Source: an uncultured bacterium
GTDB taxonomy: Bacteria; Cyanobacteriota; Vampirovibrionia; Gastranaerophilales; Gastranaerophilaceae
NCBI GenBank assembly: GCA_903885635.1
Contig: CAISJE010000180.1
Span: 1-37,148, forward strand
Length of the DNA: 37,148 nt
Direction of reading: 5' to 3'
This document shows positions 1,741 through 22,533 of this stretch, piece after piece (positions within the stretch are counted from its first letter, which is position 1; the number at the start of each line of letters is the position of its first letter). The position numbers were made by a program, and so were the translations under genes. The notes below the pieces were generated by a model that saw only the letters and a program-made list of their open reading frames with translations, made no database searches and was not told the origin of the DNA.

Positions 1741-4062
1741 TCACTTTTTTACTGATGACAACGAATCGCTCGGCTTTAGCATTATATTTTCGTCCAAATG
1801 AAATTGTAATCCCATCGCGGTATGGACATTTATTAATGAAATTATCCAAGCAAGCGTTGATTCGGCACCTTGATTGGCGTTAATCCCCTGTCTTTCAAGC
1901 CCGTCTGAGCATCCGCCTGTTTTGTAGTCGCAAACAGGAAGCTGCAAGTCGTTTTGCCCCAAGAACCAACCCAAACATCTTTCGCTTTCCTCAAACCATT
2001 TTTTGTCGCCTGTTGCGATATAAACATCCAAACACGCATCAATCAACCCTTTAACCTCAATCGGCTGTTGGTCAAACATAGAGCGGTTTCCGTTCACATC
2101 AAGCCAGCCGTTGTTGCCGATTATCGACAAATGTCCGTTCGGTGCCGTCTGAATTTTCAAAAGCCATTCTAAAGCTTTTATCCCTGTTTCGTATATCTCA
2201 GAATCCGACATGCCTTTTCCCGCAATAATTAACGCGTGAGGCAAAACTGCGTTTGCGTAAGTCGCCGTATCTTCGCACCAAAACCATTCCTCGGAAGAAT
2301 TATTTTTAAACAGTTGATGTATTTTTTTTGCTAAATCATCACGAAGTTTTCGAGCCGAAACATCACCGCCGTAAATCGATAAATAAGCCTGTAAGCCAAG
2401 TACTGCATAGCCCCATGCTCGAGGGGAGGTGAAATGTTCGACAACAGGCAAAGCATCCAGAAACAATCGCATAGCCATGTTCCTGATTGAACCGTCGGGT
2501 GCATCTTTTACTGTTGTCCCAAGCCCCCACAACGCCCGTGCGTGCGAATCCTCGCTTCCCGCAAGCTCCATCCATCTGCGGTCATAAGACATAAAATTAC
2601 GAAACCGTCCGTTTTCTTCGTTAAAAGCGTAGAACAAAAATCCTAAATATTTTTGGATTAAAGGAAAAACTTCTTTTTCCTTCCTAAGCGAATAATATTT
2701 CGTAATCGCGATTAATCCTCGAGCGTTATCATCAACGCAATAACCGTGGTGAAGGTTCGGAATCGTATATTTTGCGTGTTGCAACAGTCCGGTATCATCT
2801 GTCAAGGTTTTCAAATGTGATAAATTTATTTCAGGCAAATCGTTAAATATTTTATTATACTTAATCCCAACCTCTTGCACATTTTCGAGCAATTTTCTTT
2901 CTTTAATCTCAGAAAGCACTTTCAAATGGCGTTTTGCAACCTCTTTCCAAATCATAGCCCTACCGTATTGATAGCCCTTAACCCTCATTATTTCTCGTTC
3001 GTGGTCATTCGACAACAGATTGTTAATCTCCTCAGCCATTGCCATAGCGTTGTTGAACGGAACCAATTTTCCTCGTCCGTCCGCAAGCAATTCTTCTGCA
3101 TGCCAGAACGGTGTCGATACAACAGCCGTACCTGCTCCAAGAGCGTAAGCGAGTGTTCCTGAGGTGATTTGTTCTTTTTTTAGATAAGGTATGGCGTAAA
3201 TTTTTGCTGTTTGAAGGTATTGAATAAGCGTGTCGAGCTTGACAAAGTGGTTATGAAATACAATATGGTTTTCCATCCCCAATTTATTAATCGACTGCTG
3301 CAAATCGTGCCTGTATGAATCACCTGATTTTTCAAGGATATGCGGGTGGGTTTGTCCTACTATGACATACATTGCGTTTGGATGTTTTTCAATAATACTA
3401 GGCATCGCCTCAATCATTGTTTCAATCCCTTTATCAGGTCCAAGAAGCCCAAAGGTTAGTATTACGTCCTTATTCTCAAACCCGAAACTTTTATTAAACA
3501 ATCCGGGGGTTTTAAAAGTAGTATCAGGAATTCCGTGCGGAATAAAAGAAATCATTTCCCTGTCTATATCATAAACTTTTGTAAGAATATCAACAGCTTT
3601 TTTACTCATTACAAGCAATCGGTCAGAATATTTCGCCAGCCCTTTCATAATTTTTCGCTGACCATCGGTCGGGTTTTCAAGCACTGTATGTAAGTTTGTA
3701 ATAACAGGCATTTTTAGAAATTTAATCATATGTAAAATATGCGAGCCGTTTTCTCCGCCAAAAATACCGAACTCGTGTTGGACGATAACTGCATCATACT
3801 GGTTAGCATTTAGATAATCAGCTGCCCAAAAATAATCGGACTGAACATTTTGTCTTATTCTAAACTTAACTTGAGGTGGATATTTGTATCCTTCGGGGAT
3901 GTCATCCATGGCAACGTTTATTAAATTTTTTTCTTGTCTTAATTCTCTTGCCAGTGATTGGCTTAAATCTGTAGTAAAAGTGGCAATACCGCATTGCCTT
4001 GGGAGGTAGTTACCTATTACGGCAATTTTTCCGATATTATCATTTTTACGTGGATTTAACAT
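1741..4062 (-). CDS. GT4 glycosyltransferase fused to a C-terminal helical domain
   Basis: A 773-residue two-part protein. Residues 1 to about 380 are a GT-B glycosyltransferase of the GT4 type: an N-terminal GNYLPRQCGIATFTTDL loop, VQHEFGIFGG, LHTVLE, PHGIPD, a GLLGPDKGIE nucleotide-sugar segment and a HAEELLADGRG acceptor region. Residues about 420-750 form an alpha-helical, (alpha/alpha)6-barrel-like region with YCVDDNARGLIA, GSEDSHARALWGLG and NQGAESTLAW, reminiscent of glycoside-processing barrels. Its start overlaps the upstream GH130 gene by 17 bp, implying translational coupling, and AAAGGG precedes the ATG. I infer a role in making or trimming a mannose-containing glycan. The exact donor and product are not readable from the sequence. 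Confidence 0.85.
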   Translation of the reverse strand: MLNPRKNDNIGKIAVIGNYLPRQCGIATFTTDLSQSLARELRQEKNLINVAMDDIPEGYKYPPQVKFRIRQNVQSDYFWAADYLNANQYDAVIVQHEFGIFGGENGSHILHMIKFLKMPVITNLHTVLENPTDGQRKIMKGLAKYSDRLLVMSKKAVDILTKVYDIDREMISFIPHGIPDTTFKTPGLFNKSFGFENKDVILTFGLLGPDKGIETMIEAMPSIIEKHPNAMYVIVGQTHPHILEKSGDSYRHDLQQSINKLGMENHIVFHNHFVKLDTLIQYLQTAKIYAIPYLKKEQITSGTLAYALGAGTAVVSTPFWHAEELLADGRGKLVPFNNAMAMAEEINNLLSNDHEREIMRVKGYQYGRAMIWKEVAKRHLKVLSEIKERKLLENVQEVGIKYNKIFNDLPEINLSHLKTLTDDTGLLQHAKYTIPNLHHGYCVDDNARGLIAITKYYSLRKEKEVFPLIQKYLGFLFYAFNEENGRFRNFMSYDRRWMELAGSEDSHARALWGLGTTVKDAPDGSIRNMAMRLFLDALPVVEHFTSPRAWGYAVLGLQAYLSIYGGDVSARKLRDDLAKKIHQLFKNNSSEEWFWCEDTATYANAVLPHALIIAGKGMSDSEIYETGIKALEWLLKIQTAPNGHLSIIGNNGWLDVNGNRSMFDQQPIEVKGLIDACLDVYIATGDKKWFEESERCLGWFLGQNDLQLPVCDYKTGGCSDGLERQGINANQGAESTLAWIISLINVHTAMGLQFHLDENIMLKPSDSLSSVKK

Positions 4063-10267: not shown

Positions 10268-10621
10268 ATGACAAATGGTTTTTACACCCCAAAAATAAAC
10301 TTAAGCGGGCATGTGCAAAACGGTGAAGCCGGTATGAAACTTGGCTCTATGCCATCTATTGCATCTCCAAAACTTGATCAGATAAGCGAAGTTTCATCAA
10401 CAAGCTTCAAGGGAGTTATGTCGGGGCTTGTTCAAAACTTAAATCAGAGTTTAAGTGCACCTGACCAGCTTTTAAGTGCTTCTATGTCCGAGAATAGTGA
10501 TGTTGATATTCATGATGTTATGACTGCAATGGCTAAAGCTGAGATAAGTGTCAATGTTGCAACGCAAATTACGTCAAAAGTCATTCAAGCGTATGACAAA
10601 ATTATGCAAATATCAGTGTAA
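10268..10621 (+). CDS. fliE: Flagellar hook-basal body protein FliE
   Basis: FliE connects the MS ring to the proximal rod and is among the first substrates of the flagellar export gate. The 117-residue protein ends in the conserved FliE helix: DVDIHDVMTAMAKAEISVNV followed by QITSKVIQAYDKIMQISV, matching the family pattern of HDVM.AM.KAE and KV..AY..IM. The N-terminal half is low in conservation, as usual. It is the first gene of a plus-strand flagellar cluster with fliF next. An AGGT sits before the ATG. Rod genes flgB and flgC, often just upstream of fliE, are not in this window. Confidence 0.9.
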   Translation: MTNGFYTPKINLSGHVQNGEAGMKLGSMPSIASPKLDQISEVSSTSFKGVMSGLVQNLNQSLSAPDQLLSASMSENSDVDIHDVMTAMAKAEISVNVATQITSKVIQAYDKIMQISV

Positions 10622-10667
10622 ACTTAATAATATATACATATTGGTAAAAAAATTGTATAATATTATA

Positions 10668-10767
10668 GGGTAAGAAAAAAGGGTAAGGGGTAAGAAGAAA
10701 GCGAAATATGGAACTCGATAAAGCCTTTCAGTCCCACAATCCTTCAACCCTTCAAGCTTTAAACCAA
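10668..10767. repeat. Degenerate 7-8 bp tandem-repeat spacer between fliE and fliF
   Basis: GGTAAGAAAAAAGGGTAAGG and GGTAAGAAG units, followed by CCTTCAACCCTTCAAG, give a degenerate short-period tandem texture like the GGTAAAC tracts elsewhere in the window. No coding potential is seen. Confidence 0.4.
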
Positions 10768-10785
10768 AAGGCAGGGATGTAAATA

Positions 10786-12423
10786 ATGGATTTTCAAAAA
10801 CTACTAGAAAACAAACCTTTATTGTACACGATTATAGGAGCGATAATTGTGATACTTGCACTTAGTATAACTGTGGGCGTTGTTTCATCGTCTAAGGGCA
10901 CAACAAAGGAAGGCGTTATCAAAGAAAAAGTGATTAAAGAACCTTTGGATTTATTGACTACGGATAATTTAGGTAAAGCCATCGAAATTCAGGCGCTTTT
11001 GGCTCGAGAAGGGATTAATGCGGATAGAAAAATAGATGGTACAAAATCAACCATTTATTTAAAAGAATATACTCAATCTCAGAGGGATAGGTCGCTTTTG
11101 GCAATAGTAAAAAGTGGGCTTATGGACCAAAATGTTGGGCTAGAAATTTTTGACAAAGGTGATTTTACTTCAACAAAAGAAGATAAAAGAATTAGACTTG
11201 CAAGAGCAATAAATGGAGAACTTGCAAGACTTATCAGGAAAATTCCTCCGATAGAAAATGCATCGGTGTTTATTTCTATTCCGGAACAAACAATGTTTAC
11301 ATCAATGCAAAAACCCATAACAGCAACAGTTCAGGTAACAATTCCCAGCGGGGATAAGCTTGATCAATTAAAAATCAAAGCCATTACAAACCTGCTTTTA
11401 GGCAGTGTAACAGGTATTGCTACTGAGAATATTTCAATTACGGACACAAACGGAAATGTTTATTCCAGCATTATCAATGACGAAGATGATATGGCTAATA
11501 GAGCGGAAGAAAATGATAAATACATGCAACAAAAAGTAAATGCTCAATTAGACAGATTACTTGGAAAAGGCAACTATGTGGCAACAGTCAGTACATTCTT
11601 ACGTCAATCACCCATTGAAACAACAAGTATAAATTATGACCCTAACAAAAAAACCTCCGTAAGCGAACAAACATTTACTGAAGGCTTGGGAGATAAAAGT
11701 CAGGATTCTGATAACGGCGGTGCCGTAAGTGTTTATATGCCTCCCGGATTATCACAAACAGGTAAGGCAAATTCCTCCCAAAATAGAAATTATGCACGCT
11801 CTGCAAGAGAAACCCAATATGGAGTTTCAAAAACTCAGATTAGTGAATATACGAAAGCAGGAGTTATAGAAGAAGTTTCAGTCGCGGTCACCTTGGAAAA
11901 GAGTGCCTTGCCTTCTGATACGACATTGAAAGAATTAAAAGATTTAATTGCAGGGGCAGCAGGTCCTAAAGTTAATGCAAATAACATTACGATTGCGCTT
12001 TCAGATTCAATTGATCCTTATTTAGCCGCCGATAGAGTTGCCAATTTGCCAAAGCCTGATGAAACAGGAAATCCTTGGTGGCTTGCAATTGCGGCAATTG
12101 TTATAGGGCTTGTTGGAGGTTTAAAATATATTTCCGCAAAAGTAAAAGCTTCTCAAGACAGACAAAGAGAAGAATTGATACAATTGCAAGAAAAAACTCA
12201 CGATCAAGAACTTCAACTTCGAGATGTCCATTTGAAAGCTGCGGAATTAACCGAAAAACAATCTAAAATGGCTCAGGGATTCATTGAACAGCAAAAGAGA
12301 GAGGTTGTATCACCGTATGCAAGCGATCTTGATAATACACTTAGAGATTTAACCTCAGATTTGGAAGGCTTGGATGAAGAAGATGCAGGGGAAAAAATTA
12401 AGAATTGGATAGAAAAAGGTTAA
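10786..12423 (+). CDS. fliF: Flagellar MS-ring protein FliF
   Basis: FliF builds the inner-membrane MS ring that houses the flagellar export gate. The 545-residue protein has the expected order: membrane helix 1 at about 15-35, ring-building YscJ-like domains at about 45-220 (EIQALLAREGINADRKIDG, RAINGELARLIRKIPPIENA, SVFISIPE), a second periplasmic region, membrane helix 2 at about 428-448 (WWLAIAAIVIGLVGG), then a coiled coil and an acidic C-terminus. The extreme end, GEKIKNWIEKG, matches the conserved C-terminal helix that binds FliG. AGGGATG precedes the start. Retention of that tail matters, because the next gene is an unusual FliG candidate. Confidence 0.95.
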   Translation: MDFQKLLENKPLLYTIIGAIIVILALSITVGVVSSSKGTTKEGVIKEKVIKEPLDLLTTDNLGKAIEIQALLAREGINADRKIDGTKSTIYLKEYTQSQRDRSLLAIVKSGLMDQNVGLEIFDKGDFTSTKEDKRIRLARAINGELARLIRKIPPIENASVFISIPEQTMFTSMQKPITATVQVTIPSGDKLDQLKIKAITNLLLGSVTGIATENISITDTNGNVYSSIINDEDDMANRAEENDKYMQQKVNAQLDRLLGKGNYVATVSTFLRQSPIETTSINYDPNKKTSVSEQTFTEGLGDKSQDSDNGGAVSVYMPPGLSQTGKANSSQNRNYARSARETQYGVSKTQISEYTKAGVIEEVSVAVTLEKSALPSDTTLKELKDLIAGAAGPKVNANNITIALSDSIDPYLAADRVANLPKPDETGNPWWLAIAAIVIGLVGGLKYISAKVKASQDRQREELIQLQEKTHDQELQLRDVHLKAAELTEKQSKMAQGFIEQQKREVVSPYASDLDNTLRDLTSDLEGLDEEDAGEKIKNWIEKG

Positions 12424-12433
12424 CAAAGTGAGA

Positions 12434-12499
12434 AGTGAGAGGAATATTTTTGTAACCACTCACCTCTCACTAAAACAAAAAGGCGAGAGGTTACAAAAA
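12434..12499 (+). promoter_or_regulatory. Alternative hairpins in the fliF-fliG-position spacer
   Basis: AGTGAGAGG (12434-12442) is a perfect complement of CCTCTCACT (12463-12471). The latter's CCTCTC is also complementary to GAGAGG (12485-12490), the likely ribosome site of the next gene. TTTTTGTAACC (12447-12457) is a perfect complement of GGTTACAAAAA (12489-12499). The pairings are mutually competing, so the spacer could act as a translational switch; function is inferred. Confidence 0.35.
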
Positions 12500-12504
12500 C
12501 AATT

Positions 12505-13476
12505 ATGGCAATAGAGGGTTTTGATTATCAAGGATTTGCGCAGGAACTCGCTTCGCAAGCGGGCGATCTTCTTCCTGCGGATTTTCAGGAGTTTCAAAAA
12601 ACTTATGTAATAAATACTATCAAAAATTTCGCTACTCTTTGCGGAGAAGCAATATATAACGATGAAACCGCTAATTTTAATGTCGATCAGGGAATGCTTA
12701 TAACTCAAATTATTGCAGAATGGTCGTTCCATAAATCGGTTGATTTAATAAAAGCAGGCATCATTCCTGATTATTGGGATAGCGTCATGCAAAAAATTGC
12801 ATTCACTATCTTTGAAATTGGTAAACAAACTATTACAAAGGGATTGCCGCAGGATGAAATACTTCAAATTGTTGAACATCATGTCAAAAAAGCTTATCAA
12901 GCTGCACTTGAAGAATTACAAGAACGTAAAGCCATAGATTCAGAAGTATTTGAAAAAGCAACACATCAATCGAATATCGATGATATGATGGAACAATTAC
13001 AAAAACAAAAAGCAGAACTTAATGCTAATACAGAATCTCAAGTTCAAGAAAAAGGTCATCAATCAAGTTCCAAAATCCTAAAGCTGGCTTCAGTTGCACT
13101 GATATTGAAACAAATTTCTCAGGATAAGGTTCAGACAATTTTAAATAAATTTGATACGCACGATGCTCAAACAGTTATTCAATATATGCAAATGCCCGAT
13201 TTGGAGAAAAAATTAGATAAAGACATAACCATGCGATGTCTAAAGGAAATAAAAATTAGTTTACCTGAGCCAAAATATATCAGCGCAGATAAAATTCTTT
13301 TGAGAATGAAGAAAGTTTTTGAAAAGTTGCCTAAAGATAATATAGAAAGAATAATCACCAAAGAACGCCCTAATGTAAAAGCATTTATTGAAAAAGCGTA
13401 TATTGGGGAATGTTCTCCAATGCCTTCTAAAGTTGCAAGTATAATCGCACAACATTTGGAGGAAAACGTTTTATGA
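12505..13476 (+). CDS. Divergent protein at the fliG position
   Basis: A 323-residue, mostly helical, soluble protein between fliF and fliH, the usual site of fliG, with a FliG-like total length. The N-terminal ~150 residues (MAIEGFDYQGFAQELA; QMLI-type helices to about HHVKKAYQAALEEL) do not resemble FliG. After a charged linker, residues about 190-323 (KILKLASVALILKQISQDKV, TILNKFDTHDAQTVIQYM) recall the helical FliG N-terminal/middle repeats. I find neither the EHPQ motif nor the charged C-terminal torque helix. It overlaps fliH by 4 bp. It may be a remodelled FliG or a FliF adaptor; if the latter, a true fliG should exist elsewhere. Confidence 0.6.
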   Translation: MAIEGFDYQGFAQELASQAGDLLPADFQEFQKTYVINTIKNFATLCGEAIYNDETANFNVDQGMLITQIIAEWSFHKSVDLIKAGIIPDYWDSVMQKIAFTIFEIGKQTITKGLPQDEILQIVEHHVKKAYQAALEELQERKAIDSEVFEKATHQSNIDDMMEQLQKQKAELNANTESQVQEKGHQSSSKILKLASVALILKQISQDKVQTILNKFDTHDAQTVIQYMQMPDLEKKLDKDITMRCLKEIKISLPEPKYISADKILLRMKKVFEKLPKDNIERIITKERPNVKAFIEKAYIGECSPMPSKVASIIAQHLEENVL

Positions 13477-14162
13477 TTATTAAAAAAAGAAGTGAATTAA
13501 TAAGCAAAAAAGTTGACAAGGAGCGCTCGACAACAGAAATTAAAATGGAAGATGCAAAGATTGATTTATTTGATTTAGATAATATAGATTTTGCTCAAAG
13601 ACAAGAAAGAAGAAGAGGAGACCGCCGTCGCGGTTACAGAAGAATTGATGATAGAAATTTAATTTCAAGAGCGCAGGAAGAAGCTGGAACAATAAAAAAT
13701 GCTGCGGCAAAAGAGGGTTACAACGAGGGGCTTGAAAAAGCTAAACATGATATTCAGCAACTCACAAGCGCTTTGGGAGATTTCTTGAAAGCAAAACAGG
13801 AGGTTTTTGAATATATAGCTCCTGATATTTTGGAGATAAGTATTGATATTGCTAAAAAAATTGTAAAACATGAAATAGAGCAAGATCCTCAAATAATTTT
13901 AGCAACAATTTTGGACGTTTTAAAAACAATTTCCAGAGATGAAGCAAGGATTAGTATAAAAGTAAATCCCGCTGAAGTGGCTATAGTAAAAACGAATGTT
14001 GCCGAAATAAGCTCATCAATAGGGCTTGAAGCAAGAATAAATGTTATTGCTGATGATACAATAGAAATAGGAAGTTGCATTGTTCAAGCAAGTAACGGAA
14101 TAGTAGATGCAACGGTAAATACTCAACTGGAAATAATTAAGGAAGCTTTTAAAGGAATTTAA
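13473..14162 (+). CDS. fliH: Flagellar assembly protein FliH
   Basis: FliH is the stator-like regulator of the export ATPase FliI and delivers it to the export gate. The 229-residue protein has an Arg-rich N-terminus (RQERRRGDRRRGYRR), a coiled coil at about 68-115 with AAKEGYNEGLEKAK, and a C-terminal FliH/HrpE domain containing IDIAKKIVKHEIEQDP, ISIKVNPAEVAIVK and the DDTIEIGSCIVQASNGIVDA segment typical of the family. The ATG overlaps the preceding stop (ATGA). fliI does not follow; flhA does, so the ATPase must be encoded elsewhere. Confidence 0.88.
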   Translation: MIIKKRSELISKKVDKERSTTEIKMEDAKIDLFDLDNIDFAQRQERRRGDRRRGYRRIDDRNLISRAQEEAGTIKNAAAKEGYNEGLEKAKHDIQQLTSALGDFLKAKQEVFEYIAPDILEISIDIAKKIVKHEIEQDPQIILATILDVLKTISRDEARISIKVNPAEVAIVKTNVAEISSSIGLEARINVIADDTIEIGSCIVQASNGIVDATVNTQLEIIKEAFKGI

Positions 14163-14166
14163 GCAA

Positions 14167-16263
14167 ATGGCTCAATCAAACAACGGAAATCCGATAAGTG
14201 AAATATTTTTAGCAGTCTTCGTATTGATGCTAATCCTAATTTTGCTGATTGAAATGCCTGAGTGGATTATAAACTTTTCGATAAGCTTAAATATAACATT
14301 AGGAATTGTTTTGCTGATGATTTCTTTGTACGTTCAAAAACCTCTTGAATTGGCATCTTTTCCTTCAATAATTCTTTTAGGTACGATGTTTCGACTTGTT
14401 TTAAGTATCGCAGTAACCCGTTTGATTTTGTCAAAAGGTGATGCCGGAGCTGTAATTCATGCGTTCGGGAACTTCGTAACGGGGGGGAATTTAATCGTTG
14501 GTGGTGTAATCTTCTTAATTATCACCGTAGTCCAGTTTATGGTAATTACCAAGGGTGCCGAGCGTATCGCGGAAGTTGCCGCAAGATTTGCATTGGACGC
14601 TATGCCGGGGAAACAAATGACAATCGATGCCGATTTTAATGCAGGATTGATTTCGCCTGAAGAAGCAGTCAGGAAAAGAGAAGACTTACAAAGAGAATCA
14701 AATCTTTTCGGTTCAATGGATGGTGCGATGAAGTTTGTAAAGGGAGATACGATTGCAGGTATCATAATTGTTATAATAAACATTATCGGGGGCTTATGCA
14801 TAGGGATGTTAATGAACGGTATGCCTGTCGCAGATGCCGTTTCAAAATATACACTCTTAACTATCGGGGATGGTTTGGCGTCACAAGTTCCGTCTTTATT
14901 AATGGCAATTGCGGCGGGTATCTTGATGACACGTTCTTCTGCGGCAACTTCATCATTAGGTGCGGATTTGACAAACCAGATTATGAGCAAACCTTACAGT
15001 TTATTTTTTGCCGGCGCCTTTTTGTTTTTCATCGCAGCAACAAGTTCTTTTACGGGACTGCCTTGGGGGCCATTTTTATTCTTCGCAGTTATTATAATTG
15101 TTGCGGGATTTTCAGTTCTTGTTAATGTAGATGTTCAATCTCAGTTGGGACAATTGGAAAACGTTCGTCAAAACATGCAGGATTTGGTTAACCCAAATAG
15201 AATGTATGAACGGTTAGGCGTAGATGTTTTGAGTTTGCAAGTCGGAGCTGGTTTGCTTGTTATTGCAGACCCTGACCAAGAAGGACAATTGCTTGCCAAA
15301 ATTGCGGCTCTGAGACAGAGAACAACAGACGAATTAGGTTATATAATACCAAACATAAGAATTATGGATTCTTCAGCTCTCGAATCTGAAGAATATCTGA
15401 TTTCAGTACGTGGCAATACTGTTGCAACAGGTTTTGTTTATCCTAAACGATATATGGTTATAGCCGATCAATGGGATGCGATTAGAAAAACAGTTCCTGA
15501 AGATGCGATAGTCGGAGTTGACCCTACGTACCAAACTCAAGCATACTGGATTAATGCAGAAGATGCAAAGCAATCACAAGGTGTAATGGCGGTTGATGCG
15601 ACAGATGTTATAATTACACACCTGCAAGAATGTGTGAGAAAACACGTTGACGAGGTCATGACAAAAACCGATGTCTTAAAACTCATGGAATTGGTGCGTT
15701 CTCAAGACCCTACGCTTGTCAACGATTTGGTGCCTGTAATAATTTCGACAAGTGATTTAAGAAAGATCTTTGTTAACTTAATCCGAGAACGAGTTTCGAT
15801 TAAGGACATAATATTTATATTTGAAAGACTTTGCGATTACGCTAGGTTCTCAAAAGAGCCTGATATTTTATCAGAAAGACTAAGAGCCGCATTAGGTCGT
15901 CCGATTTGTCTTTCAAACGTTTTGGGAGACAAAATTCTCTACGCTTTAACCCTTTCTCCTGATTGGGAAAAAGTTCTTGATGACAGTTGCCAAAGAACAG
16001 AATTGGGAACGATGTTTTTATTGAATCCAATGCAGGTTCAGGAGCTTATTGAAACTACTGCAAATACGCTGATGAGAGCACACCAGAATGTCGGGAAGCA
16101 ACCTGTAATCTTGTGTTCGCCACGTATAAGACTTCCTTTGTATCAGCTACTTGAACGACACATCCCAACGATTGTGGTAATCTCTTATTCTGAATTGATT
16201 ACGGATATTAAGGTTGAGGCGGTTGATACGATTGGGGAAAATTACACGAGCAGCTATGCGTAG
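14167..16263 (+). CDS. flhA: Flagellar export gate protein FlhA
   Basis: FlhA is the large integral-membrane subunit of the flagellar type III export gate. The 698-residue protein has about eight hydrophobic helices in residues 15-330. The FHIPEP-family signatures ASFPSIILLGTMFRLVLSIA and RIAEVAARFALDAMPGKQM are visible, with LISPEEAVRKREDLQRES in the conserved cytosolic loop. The cytosolic C-terminal domain covers about 350-690 (RIMDSSALESEEYLISVRG, DQWDAIRKTVPEDAIVGVDP, LVNDLVPVIIS). It starts 4 bases after fliH, completing a fliE-fliF-(fliG position)-fliH-flhA run. A G7 run at 14481-14487 encodes TGGN. The gene is followed immediately by repeats. Confidence 0.96.
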   Translation: MAQSNNGNPISEIFLAVFVLMLILILLIEMPEWIINFSISLNITLGIVLLMISLYVQKPLELASFPSIILLGTMFRLVLSIAVTRLILSKGDAGAVIHAFGNFVTGGNLIVGGVIFLIITVVQFMVITKGAERIAEVAARFALDAMPGKQMTIDADFNAGLISPEEAVRKREDLQRESNLFGSMDGAMKFVKGDTIAGIIIVIINIIGGLCIGMLMNGMPVADAVSKYTLLTIGDGLASQVPSLLMAIAAGILMTRSSAATSSLGADLTNQIMSKPYSLFFAGAFLFFIAATSSFTGLPWGPFLFFAVIIIVAGFSVLVNVDVQSQLGQLENVRQNMQDLVNPNRMYERLGVDVLSLQVGAGLLVIADPDQEGQLLAKIAALRQRTTDELGYIIPNIRIMDSSALESEEYLISVRGNTVATGFVYPKRYMVIADQWDAIRKTVPEDAIVGVDPTYQTQAYWINAEDAKQSQGVMAVDATDVIITHLQECVRKHVDEVMTKTDVLKLMELVRSQDPTLVNDLVPVIISTSDLRKIFVNLIRERVSIKDIIFIFERLCDYARFSKEPDILSERLRAALGRPICLSNVLGDKILYALTLSPDWEKVLDDSCQRTELGTMFLLNPMQVQELIETTANTLMRAHQNVGKQPVILCSPRIRLPLYQLLERHIPTIVVISYSELITDIKVEAVDTIGENYTSSYA

Positions 16264-16267
16264 GCGG

Positions 16268-16331
16268 AGTAAACGGTAAACGGCAGCAACAAGCCCAAAA
16301 GCGTTCAGTAGGTCGGGCATTCCTGCCCGAC
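16268..16331. repeat. Mosaic repeat: heptamer pair plus GTAG hairpin
   Basis: Right after flhA come two GTAAACG heptamers, then GGCAGCAACAAGCCCAA, AAGCGTTCA, and a hairpin starting GTAG with stem GGTCGGGC/GCCCGAC (16308-16331). The pieces match the element at 22379-22533 in the same orientation but lack its first hairpin. Confidence 0.75.
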
Positions 16332-16355
16332 AACAAAAAATCAAAAAAGAGTAAA

Positions 16356-16476
16356 GTAGGGTGCGGATTTAACCGCACCGACATAATTTTGCTATTCTGA
16401 GGATTTAAATTATCGTGATAATCAAGTTATGGTAATAATAATCAAAAATGGTGGTGCGGATTTAACCGCACCCTAC
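16356..16476. repeat. Inverted pair of REP hairpins (BIME-like)
   Basis: Two near-identical hairpins in opposite orientation: 16356-16379 (GTAG, then stem GGTGCGG/CCGCACC around ATTTAA) and 16453-16476 (the same stem then CTAC). Between them is a further small hairpin, ATTATC-GT-GATAAT. A GTAG head and paired inverted copies are the layout of REP/BIME elements mobilised by RAYT transposases. The outer end of the second unit supplies the stop codon of the minus-strand gene at 16473. Confidence 0.75.
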
Positions 16477-16880
16477 TTGCTACCTAATCGGCGACTTGCT
16501 TGAGCAATAGTAGCAATATCTTTTTCATCTATCTGAATTGGGGTAACATCTAGTTCGGGACTGCCAATTATTTTTATTTGAGCAGCTACCCATTTATCGA
16601 TTTTGGACAAGTCTTTGGGGGCTTTGAAAAACCTCTTTGCATTCCGTGCAATTCTTTTTAATATAGGGAATTGGTTTTTTAGTTCCCTTGCACATTTTGA
16701 AGTAACTTCAAGACTTTGGAAGCCTGTCATTGTCTTATTCACATTAAATACTCCATCTGTACCATGTGCTACAAGAACAACATTAGTTATAACTTCTAAA
16801 ATATCTGTCGTAGGTAACTTAGCACCAAAAGACGGGTGTTTAGTCAATTTCGGGGGGGGGGGGCCTATTTTGTTTAACAT
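16473..16880 (-). CDS. Hypothetical protein with poly-C tract, likely phase-variable
   Basis: A 135-residue protein of unknown function starting MLNKIGPPPPKLTKHPSFGA. The start at 16880 is set by AAAGGAG about seven bases upstream; a longer in-frame version lacks this. The remainder is mixed helical and basic (ARELKNQFPILKRIARNAKR), with no signal peptide, membrane helix or recognised motif. Codons 6-10 contain twelve consecutive C on the coding strand (G at 16852-16863), in the reading frame that gives the full protein. One-base slippage would end translation early. The final codons lie inside a REP end. A -10-like TATACT sits at 16906-16911. Function is not assignable. Confidence 0.75.
   Translation of the reverse strand: MLNKIGPPPPKLTKHPSFGAKLPTTDILEVITNVVLVAHGTDGVFNVNKTMTGFQSLEVTSKCARELKNQFPILKRIARNAKRFFKAPKDLSKIDKWVAAQIKIIGSPELDVTPIQIDEKDIATIAQASRRLGSK
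16852..16863 (-). repeat. Twelve-base G/C homopolymer inside a start-proximal coding region
   Basis: A run of 12 G on the plus strand (12 C in the gene) encodes the Pro-Pro-Pro-Pro of the minus-strand protein. Such tracts in low-GC genomes are classic slipped-strand switches; the present length keeps the gene in frame. Confidence 0.85.
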
Positions 16881-16984
16881 GATTTTCTCCTTTTTGTTTA
16901 CATTTAGTATAAACTCGCTGAAAAAAAATCTTGCCCAAAAGTGTTCCAATTTTCAAAAACCTTTACATAAGTTTACATTTTATC

Positions 16985-17014
16985 TTGAAATTTTAGTCCA
17001 AAATAGTGTATAAT
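16985..17014 (+). promoter_or_regulatory. Promoter-like sequence at the mazF remnant
   Basis: TTGAAA (16985-16990), an 18-bp spacer and TATAAT (17009-17014) match a housekeeping promoter well. However, the -10 box overlaps the toxin ATG at 17013, so transcription would begin inside the coding region. The call is therefore uncertain. Confidence 0.3.
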
Positions 17015-17504
17015 GATTTATAACCAATTCGACATTGTTCTTGTGCCTTTTCCGTTTACGGACAAAAATAGTTCAAAAAAGCGACCTGCTCTAATTTTGA
17101 GCAATAAAGATTATCAAATAAAAACAAATCATCTGATATTGACGATGATTACCAGTGAGGATGCGGAAAAATCCAAAAAATGACAGTTTTTTGAGATTTT
17201 TCAAGTCCGACCTTGGAAGTGCTCGCACCCATAGCAGCTGCGGGATAGCCGGTGGTATGGGTGCGAGCCGGACAAGGGAGATTGCGAGAAAAATTCCTAA
17301 TTTTTCCGCAAGCTCAGTGCTAAAAACAGTTCTTGGGCTAATGATTTTGTGATAAAAGAACTTGAAAGCACAGGACTCAAAACCGAGTGTGTAATCAGGT
17401 ATAAAATTTTTAGCCTTGATGAGAGAATTATTCTTAAAAAAATCGGCTCTATCTCTGAAAATGAAAAATCAAAAATTAAGGAAAACTTTTTAAAGCTGAT
17501 ATAA
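17013..17504 (+). pseudogene. MazF/PemK-type toxin gene interrupted by a small inverted-repeat element
   Basis: The 5' part encodes MIYNQFDIVLVPFPFTD, SKKRPALILSN and HLILTMITS, the N-terminus of a MazF/PemK endoribonuclease toxin. It runs into the element at 17157 and hits TGA at 17181, giving a 56-residue truncated product. The reading resumes at 17319 with AKNSSWANDFVIKELESTGL, KTECVIRYKIFSLDERI and ILKKIGSISENE, ending at 17504, which is the family's C-terminal half. Removing the 159-bp element and one 3-bp target copy restores a continuous frame of 109 residues, the normal MazF size. No antitoxin gene is adjacent. The family call is confident; loss of function is inferred from the internal stop. 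Confidence 0.85.
17157..17315. mobile_element. Miniature inverted-repeat element, copy 2 (159 bp), inserted in mazF
   Basis: Terminal repeats are GAGGATGCGGAAAAA on the left and TTTTTCCGCAAGCTC on the right (13 of 15 positions complementary), flanked by a 3-bp duplication AGT (17154-17156, 17316-17318). The first ~45 bp match the 55-bp copy at 10085. The extra ~100 bp in the middle is GC-rich and contains a perfect 13-bp inverted repeat, GCTCGCACCCATA (17221-17233) against 17256-17268, with a further GTCCG/CGGAC pair outside it. No transposase is encoded, so it must be mobilised in trans. Confidence 0.8.
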
Positions 17505-17505
17505 T
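17500..17505 (+). promoter_or_regulatory. -10 hexamer 6 nt before yidD (leaderless candidate)
   Basis: TATAAT overlaps the last codons of the mazF remnant and ends six bases before the yidD ATG. No Shine-Dalgarno is present. The -35 region (TTAAGG, 17476-17481, 18-bp spacer) is weak. Confidence 0.4.
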
Positions 17506-17511
17506 ATAAAT

Positions 17512-17721
17512 ATGCTTAAAAAAATCCTAATAAAATTAATCCAAATTTATCAAAAAATATCGAGCTTAACCCCTTCAGTGTGCAGATTTGTACCGACATG
17601 CTCGGAATACACAAAACAGGCGCTGATAAAATACGGTATTTTAAAAGGACTTTGGCTTGGCACAAAAAGAGTTTGCAAATGCCACCCATTCCACCCCGGT
17701 GGATACGACCCATTGATATAA
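17512..17721 (+). CDS. yidD: Membrane protein insertion efficiency factor YidD
   Basis: A 69-residue YidD family protein, thought to assist YidC-mediated membrane insertion. The family pattern is complete: an N-terminal amphipathic helix (LKKILIKLIQIYQK), then CRFVPTCSEYTKQAL, an IKYGILKGLWLGTKR helix and the C-terminal CHPFHPGGYDP. Three conserved Cys are present. YidD is normally next to rnpA and yidC; here it is alone, just downstream of the mazF remnant and upstream of radA. A TATAAT ends six bases before the ATG without a Shine-Dalgarno. Confidence 0.95.
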   Translation: MLKKILIKLIQIYQKISSLTPSVCRFVPTCSEYTKQALIKYGILKGLWLGTKRVCKCHPFHPGGYDPLI

Positions 17722-17735
17722 TTAAAGCCGATTAC

Positions 17736-17764
17736 TTGTGCATGGGGTTCTTTTTTGTTATAAT
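17736..17764 (+). promoter_or_regulatory. Promoter of radA, positioned for a leaderless mRNA
   Basis: TTGTGC (17736-17741), a 17-bp spacer and a perfect TATAAT (17759-17764) end six bases before the radA ATG. The expected transcription start falls at or next to the A of ATG, and no Shine-Dalgarno is visible. Confidence 0.55.
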
Positions 17765-17770
17765 CAACCC

Positions 17771-19150
17771 ATGGCGAAAGTTAAGACAAAATGGATATGT
17801 CAAGAATGCGGGTATGAAACGGCAGGATATTTGGGAAAATGTCCCGAATGTTCGACTTGGGGAAGTTTGGTTGAAGAAATCCAACAAAATTTGGTGCAAA
17901 CACCAACTAACGTATGTTTTTTGAATACGCAAAAACCTTCATTACTAAATGAAATTGAATTAAGTAATGAAATTAGGATGAGCACAAATATTTCCGAGTT
18001 TGACAGAGTTTTAGGCGGTGGGTTGGTTCAAGGTTCACTTGTTTTAATTGCAGGAGATCCGGGAATCGGTAAATCAACAATACTTTTGCAGACTAGCGGG
18101 CTTTTATGCAAAAACAACAAAAAAGTTTTATATGTTTCTGCTGAGGAATCTTTAAACCAGATTAAGCTGAGAGCCGACAGGCTTGATATTAGAGCTGAGA
18201 GCCTTTACATTTATCCCCAAACGAATTTGGAACTTATAAAAAAAGAGATCGAAAATATCAAGCCCAATGTGGTTGTGATTGATAGTATTCAGGCGATTTA
18301 CACCCAAAATATGGCGAGTTCTGCGGGGAGCGTTTCTCAAATAAGGGAATGTTGTAATTTTTTAATGCAACTGGCAAAAAATAAAAACATCACAGTAATT
18401 GTTGTCGGGCATGTCACAAAAGACGGAAATATTGCAGGCCCAAAGGTTTTAGAACATATGGTTGATACAGTAATTTACTTTGAGGGTGACAAATATAAAT
18501 CCTATCGACTTTTGAGAGCTACAAAAAATCGCTTTGGGAACACTTCAGAAGTAGGAATTTTTGAAATGCAAACCAAAGGGCTTGTGGAAGTCACTAATCC
18601 GAGCGAATTATTTTTAAACGAACATTCGCAAATTTCAACGCCGGGAAGTGTAATTATAGCTACAAATGAGGGAACTCGTCCGCTTTTGGTTGAGATACAG
18701 GCACTTGTGGGGGCCACTCCATATCCGACACCTCGCAGAGTCACAAACGGAGTGGATTTTAGTAGAGTTTTACAGATTTTGGCGGTGTTAGAAAAAAGAG
18801 TCGGACTAAATCTTTCCAAGCAGGATGTTTATGTGAATGTAATCGGCGGGGTAGAAATCTCCGAACCCGCAGCTGACTTGGGAATAGCTCTGGCAGTTGC
18901 AACCTGTGCGAGGGATGTGATTGTAGATTCCCATACAGTTATAATCGGCGAAATAGGGCTTTCAGGTGAGATAAGAGCGATTAATAATGTGGAAAAAAGA
19001 ATTAAGGAAGCTCAAAAATTAGGATTTAAAAAAGCAATTATCCCGAATGCAAACGGAAATTTTGAGGAAAAAATTGAAGGCATAGAAATCGTTCGTGTAA
19101 AACGCCTGATTGATGCGATTACTTCTTGTGTTTCAAAGGCAAATCAGTAA
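17771..19150 (+). CDS. radA: DNA repair protein RadA
   Basis: RadA (Sms) is a RecA-like ATPase that promotes branch migration in recombinational repair. The 459-residue protein starts at MAKVKTKWICQECGY; an earlier in-frame ATG only adds non-homologous residues. A four-Cys zinc finger covers residues 10-27 (CQEC and CPEC). The Walker A motif GDPGIGKST is at 95-103, Walker B VVVIDSIQAIYT follows, and the RadA-specific KNRFG motif is near residue 251. The C-terminal Lon-protease-like domain includes VNVIGGVEISEPAADLGIAL and GEIGLSGEIRAI. It is preceded by its own promoter and is probably a single-gene transcript. Confidence 0.96.
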   Translation: MAKVKTKWICQECGYETAGYLGKCPECSTWGSLVEEIQQNLVQTPTNVCFLNTQKPSLLNEIELSNEIRMSTNISEFDRVLGGGLVQGSLVLIAGDPGIGKSTILLQTSGLLCKNNKKVLYVSAEESLNQIKLRADRLDIRAESLYIYPQTNLELIKKEIENIKPNVVVIDSIQAIYTQNMASSAGSVSQIRECCNFLMQLAKNKNITVIVVGHVTKDGNIAGPKVLEHMVDTVIYFEGDKYKSYRLLRATKNRFGNTSEVGIFEMQTKGLVEVTNPSELFLNEHSQISTPGSVIIATNEGTRPLLVEIQALVGATPYPTPRRVTNGVDFSRVLQILAVLEKRVGLNLSKQDVYVNVIGGVEISEPAADLGIALAVATCARDVIVDSHTVIIGEIGLSGEIRAINNVEKRIKEAQKLGFKKAIIPNANGNFEEKIEGIEIVRVKRLIDAITSCVSKANQ

Positions 19151-22378: not shown

Positions 22379-22444
22379 GGTAAACGGTAAACGGTGAACG
22401 GTGAACGGTAAACGGTGAACGGTGAACGGTGAACGGTGAACGGT
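22379..22444. repeat. Heptameric tandem repeat, GGTRAAC x ~9
   Basis: About nine consecutive 7-bp units GGTAAAC or GGTGAAC run from just after tadA. The period of seven is uninterrupted. Similar but shorter tracts occur at 5577-5612, 5703-5728 and 16268-16283. Cyanobacteria carry comparable short tandemly repeated heptamers. Confidence 0.9.
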
Positions 22445-22533
22445 GGCAACAAGCCCAAGGTCGTATAAAGTAGGGTTGGTTCCCTAACCCACCGTCAATA
22501 GGCGTTGCAGTAGGTTGGGCTTGCCAACCCAAC
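22445..22533. repeat. REP-type block with two GTAG hairpins
   Basis: Following the heptamers come GGCAACAAGCCCAAGGTC, a hairpin 22470-22493 (GTAG head, GGTTGG/CTAACC stem region), CGTCAATAGGCGTTGCA and a second hairpin 22510-22533 (GTAG, stem GTTGGGC/GCCAACC). This is the most complete copy of the mosaic repeat; copies at 5577-5728 and 16268-16331 each keep only one of the two hairpins. Confidence 0.8.

Follow-up and report, generated by a model that had tools for sequence, protein, structure and literature searches.

A poly-C tract as a likely slipped-strand switch in a repeat-switched gene repertoire of Gastranaerophilales

The window gene and its locus

The window, that is, the whole stretch of 37,148 nucleotides of Gastranaerophilales DNA analysed here, carries on its minus strand a gene of 135 codons (16473-16880; 135 aa; stop TAG), as read off the window sequence. 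From upstream, its 5' end reads AGGAGAAAATC-ATG-TTA-AAC-AAA-ATA-GG-C12-GAAATTGAC..., the twelve Cs filling codons 6-10 (GGC CCC CCC CCC CCG), where the initial annotation had placed them. The locus comprises the following features:

16473..16880, minus strand: FG-family gene in the ON state, 135 aa (MLNKIGPPPPKLTKHP-SFGAKLPTTDILEVIT...), from sequence, homologue alignment and model
16852..16863, minus strand (G12 on the plus strand): C12 tract, codons 6-10, proposed slippage switch, from sequence and computed frames
16864..16880, minus strand: 17-nt leader ATGTTAAACAAAATAGG, with an exact or near match in the C58 and C141 paralogues and a looser one in C118
16887..16890, minus strand: Shine-Dalgarno GGAG, 6 nt before the ATG, from sequence
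16906..16911, minus strand: putative -10 box TATACT, from sequence comparison, with a presumed promoter function
16354..16384, no strand: REP arm 1 (GTAGGGTGCGGATTTAACCGCACC), from sequence
16448..16478, no strand: REP arm 2, overlapping the stop codon of the window gene (TAG inside the arm), from sequence
17013..17183, plus strand: 5' part (56 codons) of a divergent MazF/PemK-type toxin gene, interrupted by a palindromic insert, from Pfam
17149..17323, no strand: palindromic insert in the MazF-type gene, arms 17149-17172 and 17300-17323, inner hairpin 17221-17268, from sequence
16317..17473, no strand: accessory segment holding the window gene, the MazF-type gene and the REPs, absent from the closest genome, G001

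The stretch AGTTTATACTAAATGTAAAC at the putative -10 box recurs upstream of the paralogue on contig C118. The interrupted gene matches Pfam PemK_toxin (E=4e-8), and both it and the REP pair, between which the gene had been said to sit, are real. That this is a recombination-prone patch, as also proposed, agrees with the sister species G001, the only further genome of the genus met in our searches (FlhA 99% identical; flanking DNA 95-96%): there the same flanks enclose 45 bp in place of the 1.16-kb segment that includes the window gene. Beside this insert, at 10268-16263, lie genes resembling the flagellar/type III export parts FliE, FliF, FliG, FliH and FlhA; a link between the window gene and the adjoining flhA was considered and rejected, the gene being an accessory insert there and no functional link being found. 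An Rfam search of 16000-17900 found no RNA family. At 22411-22445 the window holds five copies of the heptamer AACGGTG, and the same heptamer family recurs in other stretches of the genome.

When tract length is varied computationally, C9, C12 and C15 keep the frame and yield products of 134-136 aa; with C10, C11, C13 or C14, translation stops after 11-13 codons. By this computation a one-unit change alters the product, as expected of a phase-variable gene, and slippage of one base would abolish it, as the initial annotation anticipated. Since C12 is in frame for the full 135 codons, the assembly carries the ON form, again as first read. The earliest internal in-frame Met is residue 51, within the conserved domain, so that the OFF form loses the start of that domain.

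Of 286 genomes of the order, 27 encode homologues of the window protein. Members of the FG family (alignment A2; 20 divergent sequences) have a short tail followed by [NS]FGxK and a helix, and they finish with G-x-E-[IV]-[DN]-[IV]; profile matches to the family span 10 genera. With FGxK after a short N-tail and a matching domain (E 3e-7 pairwise), the window protein is a member; it shares FGxK, the hydrophobic helix that follows, the conserved P72 and the G-x-E-h-[DN]-h end, whereas the other members found carry a plain tail of 4-14 aa without poly-C. Its AlphaFold2 model (pLDDT 82; pTM 0.71) has a compact, confident helical domain with two short strands, and low confidence at residues 1-3 and 10-16; judged by this model, the product is probably soluble. 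Pfam gave 0 matches, NCBIfam, PADLOC and PDB sequence searches were also empty, a PDB fold search with the model returned no match (best E 3.7), and a protein search of GTDB contigs found no relative. Thus, as modelled, the product is helical, belongs to a lineage-specific family that matches no known fold and, in line with the initial annotation, is not a known surface protein. The prepilin motif G/A-F-T-L-A-E-V is absent, so it is not a type IV prepilin, and its sequence shows no obvious signal peptide, which suggests a cytoplasmic location or non-Sec export. A regulatory role is a guess; the leading candidate, although still a doubtful one, is that the protein takes part in interactions with the host, phages or neighbouring organisms that are subject to frequency-dependent selection.

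Repeat tracts in the same genome

Within the window, 7-C windows number 9 against 1.13 expected, and 0 of 100 shuffles reach 9. Over the window and 20 sampled contigs, C/G runs of lengths 4-8 number 409, 74, 11, 2 and 1, a geometric drop of about five-fold per extra base from which C12 is the sole outlier. The genome statistics are based on pattern searches and a 607-kb sample: the 2.28-Mb genome has eight C/G runs of at least 12 where extrapolation expects ~0.01, and runs of at least nine occur at nine places (lengths 12, 12, 13, 14, 14, 16, 17, 18, plus 10). The window gene thus carries a repeat longer than chance, as phase-variable genes do, and the earlier assertion that it is very unlikely to be fortuitous holds.

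Five of these nine runs sit a few codons past a Shine-Dalgarno/ATG, a placement for which the reversed control pattern gives 0. The five genes (window, contigs C58, C88, C118 and C141) have a common layout of Shine-Dalgarno, ATG, short leader and poly-C ahead of differing bodies, mostly with an xSFG motif, and in three of them the leader is near-identical (ATG-YTA-AAC-AAA-ATA-GG). Two are in frame, or ON (window, C12; C58, C17), and three out of frame, or OFF (C88, C12; C118, C13; C141, C14), the latter with intact bodies of 95-108 codons. The C58 and C141 paralogues align over no more than 22 residues around PPPP...SFG; from such comparisons the poly-C genes look like one 5' module fused to different bodies. 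The C58 body was tried as an FG-family member and rejected, profile comparison matching only 8 residues around SFG. A general xFG tag also found no backing, F[GKQ] having no clear positional excess near the N-termini of 196 proteins of this genome. In viral contigs the leader 17-mer has 32 matches, 0 of them followed by a C run, and these were set aside as chance in AT-rich DNA.

The remaining four tracts comprise an in-frame C18 inside a protein gene and three that are intergenic. The C18 run (L040, reverse strand, position 3251; G000 C143) lies near the C-terminus of a 335-aa protein, the tail of which slippage would alter. Of the intergenic tracts, a C16 run (L041 515-530; G000 C233) lies upstream of a PAS-domain gene and is a possible transcriptional switch.

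Repeats of other kinds occur as well. A sixth gene, a relative of the C58 body adjoining ahcY (contig C214; C4 in G001), is without poly-C; a CAAT array separates its ATG from the SFG motif instead, with (CAAT)6 here and (CAAT)12 in the G001 orthologue. Both copy numbers are out of frame; 4, 7, 10 or 13 copies would restore the frame. In the 607-kb sample, an octamer array, (GACAAGCA)n, stands in the leader of two of three pilin-like genes; the arrays recorded are:

C3 end, L346 14682-14732: (GACAAGCA)n leader array of a pilin-like gene; contig ends inside the array
C170 end, L360 3754-3871: (GACAAGCA)n leader array of a pilin-like gene; contig ends inside the array
C5, L395 111-174: (GACAAGCA)n leader array of a pilin-like gene, 8 units, out of frame

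The occurrence of different repeats at one functional place is strong evidence that the place serves as a switch. The C170 pilin-like protein ends in an Lcl_C-like stretch (Pfam E 5e-7, which narrowly misses the curated cut-off) and, from its sequence, may be a pilin that displays a binding domain.

Poly-C pilin-like genes and alternative readings

Across the family, the pattern GGAG-N3-10-ATG-N5-28-C9+ has matches in 41 of 288 genomes and 11 of 41 genera, up to 32 per genome, with a control near zero. In the most-read genera (g7, g14, g22, g26 and g57), the bodies behind these leaders are nearly all type IV pilin-like (FTLAEVLITLGIIG; 200-320 aa), and the prepilin motif follows the tract, which is part of the leader. 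In GTDB (84,980 species), at least 117 stretches have C9+ followed by the prepilin motif within 10-40 nt; among the matches listed, every record with a taxon name is Gastranaerophilales, Melainabacteria or CAG:439, the others being MAGs. Most of the genomes compared are metagenome assemblies. In a CAOJDT MAG (L169, L177, L202, L252), C runs of up to 28-53 precede pilin motifs, far longer than elsewhere, which reflects either true expansion or an assembly effect. At L127 (G252 C226), leader and C11 stand in frame before a 440-aa non-pilin protein, so the layout is used on further gene types.

Only 9 of 143 distinct pilin loci are in frame; of the 134 out of frame, 95 would regain the frame with one added C and 39 with two, a shortage of in-frame loci of P ~8e-15 against one third, loci within a genome not being independent. 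The locus patterns demanded at least C9 (C8 in the last count) and so passed over ON alleles whose tracts are shorter, which may inflate the out-of-frame excess to some degree. This excess is the main feature without explanation; we read it as default-OFF, with the common length one base off, and it leaves room for another route of expression. Pairs of out-of-frame pilin bodies have dN/dS values mostly of 0.08-0.2; this purifying selection acts on the bodies as proteins, which must therefore be produced at least occasionally. The searches located the window locus in no second genome; at comparable loci, tract length does differ between close relatives: the orthologues L325 (C11, ON) and L331 (C10, OFF) have identical flanks, and near-identical DNA in three species of one genus (L068, L070, L071) carries C11, C10 and C9. 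The latter locus has only a 30-codon ORF and is possibly a small RNA or tiny peptide.

Poly-C proline codons are prone to frameshift. Programmed ribosomal frameshifting, or transcriptional slippage, on the poly-C would make the genomic frame something other than the expression state, and besides this proneness it draws on species in which all pilin loci read share one offset (G229, 12 of 12 C10; G289, 8 of 8 C9) with bodies under purifying selection. Yet the offset varies between and within genomes (in G083, with the same flanks, C11 requires two more bases and C12 one), the window and C58 genes are in frame, and the CAAT and octamer arrays at the equivalent place do not belong to this class of frameshift site. 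The L325/L331 pair further argues against it as a general answer, and we consider this explanation improbable.

Comparison with G001 bears on whether the tract is instead an accidental expansion in a decaying, hypermutable gene under relaxed selection, without adaptive switching. One of the five poly-C loci, C88, is present there, without the tract; the other four, window gene included, are absent, one flank of each of the missing C58, C118 and C141 genes being located at 88-96% identity. Around C88 the two genomes are collinear over 2.7 kb and the G001 orthologue is intact, with GCCCCCCAAAG where our genome has C12 (the G001 sequence reads ATGAAAATCATTAATAAATCTG-C6-AAAGACCC...); a normal gene therefore exists at a place where, in the own species, the tract is long and the frame shifted. 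For C88, the one gene of the set testable in this way, dN/dS is 0.6-1.0 over 11-16 changed codons, few enough that relaxed selection is possible and diversification equally compatible. Decay could thus claim both the ratio of up to 1 and the single, tractless locus in the sister species, but five loci of one design, with the tract at an identical place and bodies free of stops, together with the CAAT array at the equivalent place and the conserved pilin bodies, make it very unlikely. An artefact of sequencing or assembly at a short C run can be practically dismissed, fragmented as the assembly is (233 contigs) and error-prone as homopolymers are, given an excess over a clean geometric background, concentrated in one gene context, and the identical design in many independent assemblies. 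The phase variation proposed in the initial annotation is supported by same-leader paralogues in mixed frames, by the intact C88 orthologue without a long tract and by the (CAAT)6 and (CAAT)12 alleles.

A proposed switch and its known counterparts

Overall, these comparisons of sequence lead us to suggest, with a probability of about 0.83, that the C12 tract of the window gene is a slipped-strand phase-variation switch, one of a lineage-wide repeat-switched repertoire; phase switching within a population, and its rate, we infer. Replication slippage would add or remove one C, shifting the frame and leaving a peptide of 11-13 aa (OFF), and addition or removal of three Cs, or reversal, would keep or restore the frame (ON). 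The protein is small and probably soluble, and the switch would be located within its translated N-tail; this tail, before the SFG motif, is predicted to be disordered and so should accept 3, 4 or 5 prolines. On this reading the genome has six or more repeat-switched genes of this layout, the window gene among them; five carry poly-C and one carries CAAT, and most occupy accessory positions. They would belong to an apparent lineage-wide habit of Gastranaerophilales, which place repeats in the leaders of gene families that are for the most part type IV pilin-like. More tentatively, the switch may be modular and mostly default-OFF: a 5' module of Shine-Dalgarno, leader and poly-C would be exchanged among unrelated bodies, cells would express a random few of dozens of pilins and xSFG proteins, and the preferred tract length would be one base off ON. 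We hold this to be possible rather than probable; if true, the out-of-frame excess is a design feature.

Among the closest counterparts are the type IV prepilins of related genera, which have the same leader and poly-C layout, whereas the window protein is not a pilin. In Haemophilus influenzae, (CAAT)n arrays are the switches of the lipopolysaccharide genes lic1/lic2; the array by ahcY is likewise right after the start codon, variable in copy number and frame-dependent, but its target is an xSFG-type protein, a relative of the window gene in layout. Homopolymeric G/C tracts and short tandem arrays are central to the known mechanism of phase variation (PMC5084427, PMC8355987). As in Neisseria pilC and the Campylobacter contingency loci (PMC5084427, PMC8355987), a long G/C coding tract lies near the start, the frame sets ON or OFF and several loci occur per genome; as in Neisseria, pilus function is among the switched targets. 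Unlike those loci, the tract occurs here in the distant Gastranaerophilales, in the leaders of pilin-like genes that can number dozens, and also in the disordered tail of a soluble family without characterised members. The type IV pili of Melainabacteria have been mentioned without switching (PMC5877343), and we found no literature linking Gastranaerophilales to phase variation in a search that left most subscription journals and preprints outside. The best-known cases of simple-repeat phase variation are in mucosal Proteobacteria and Campylobacterota; here a large, lineage-wide repertoire appears in a gut-dwelling, non-photosynthetic sister group of the cyanobacteria, mostly uncultured and poorly understood. 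It points to pili and a soluble protein family as the places where Gastranaerophilales face shifting selection. The tracts are ready markers to track in metagenomes, and gene callers will report OFF genes as missing or broken. Relative to the literature searched, the mechanism is of a known kind; the host group, the targets and the scale are new.
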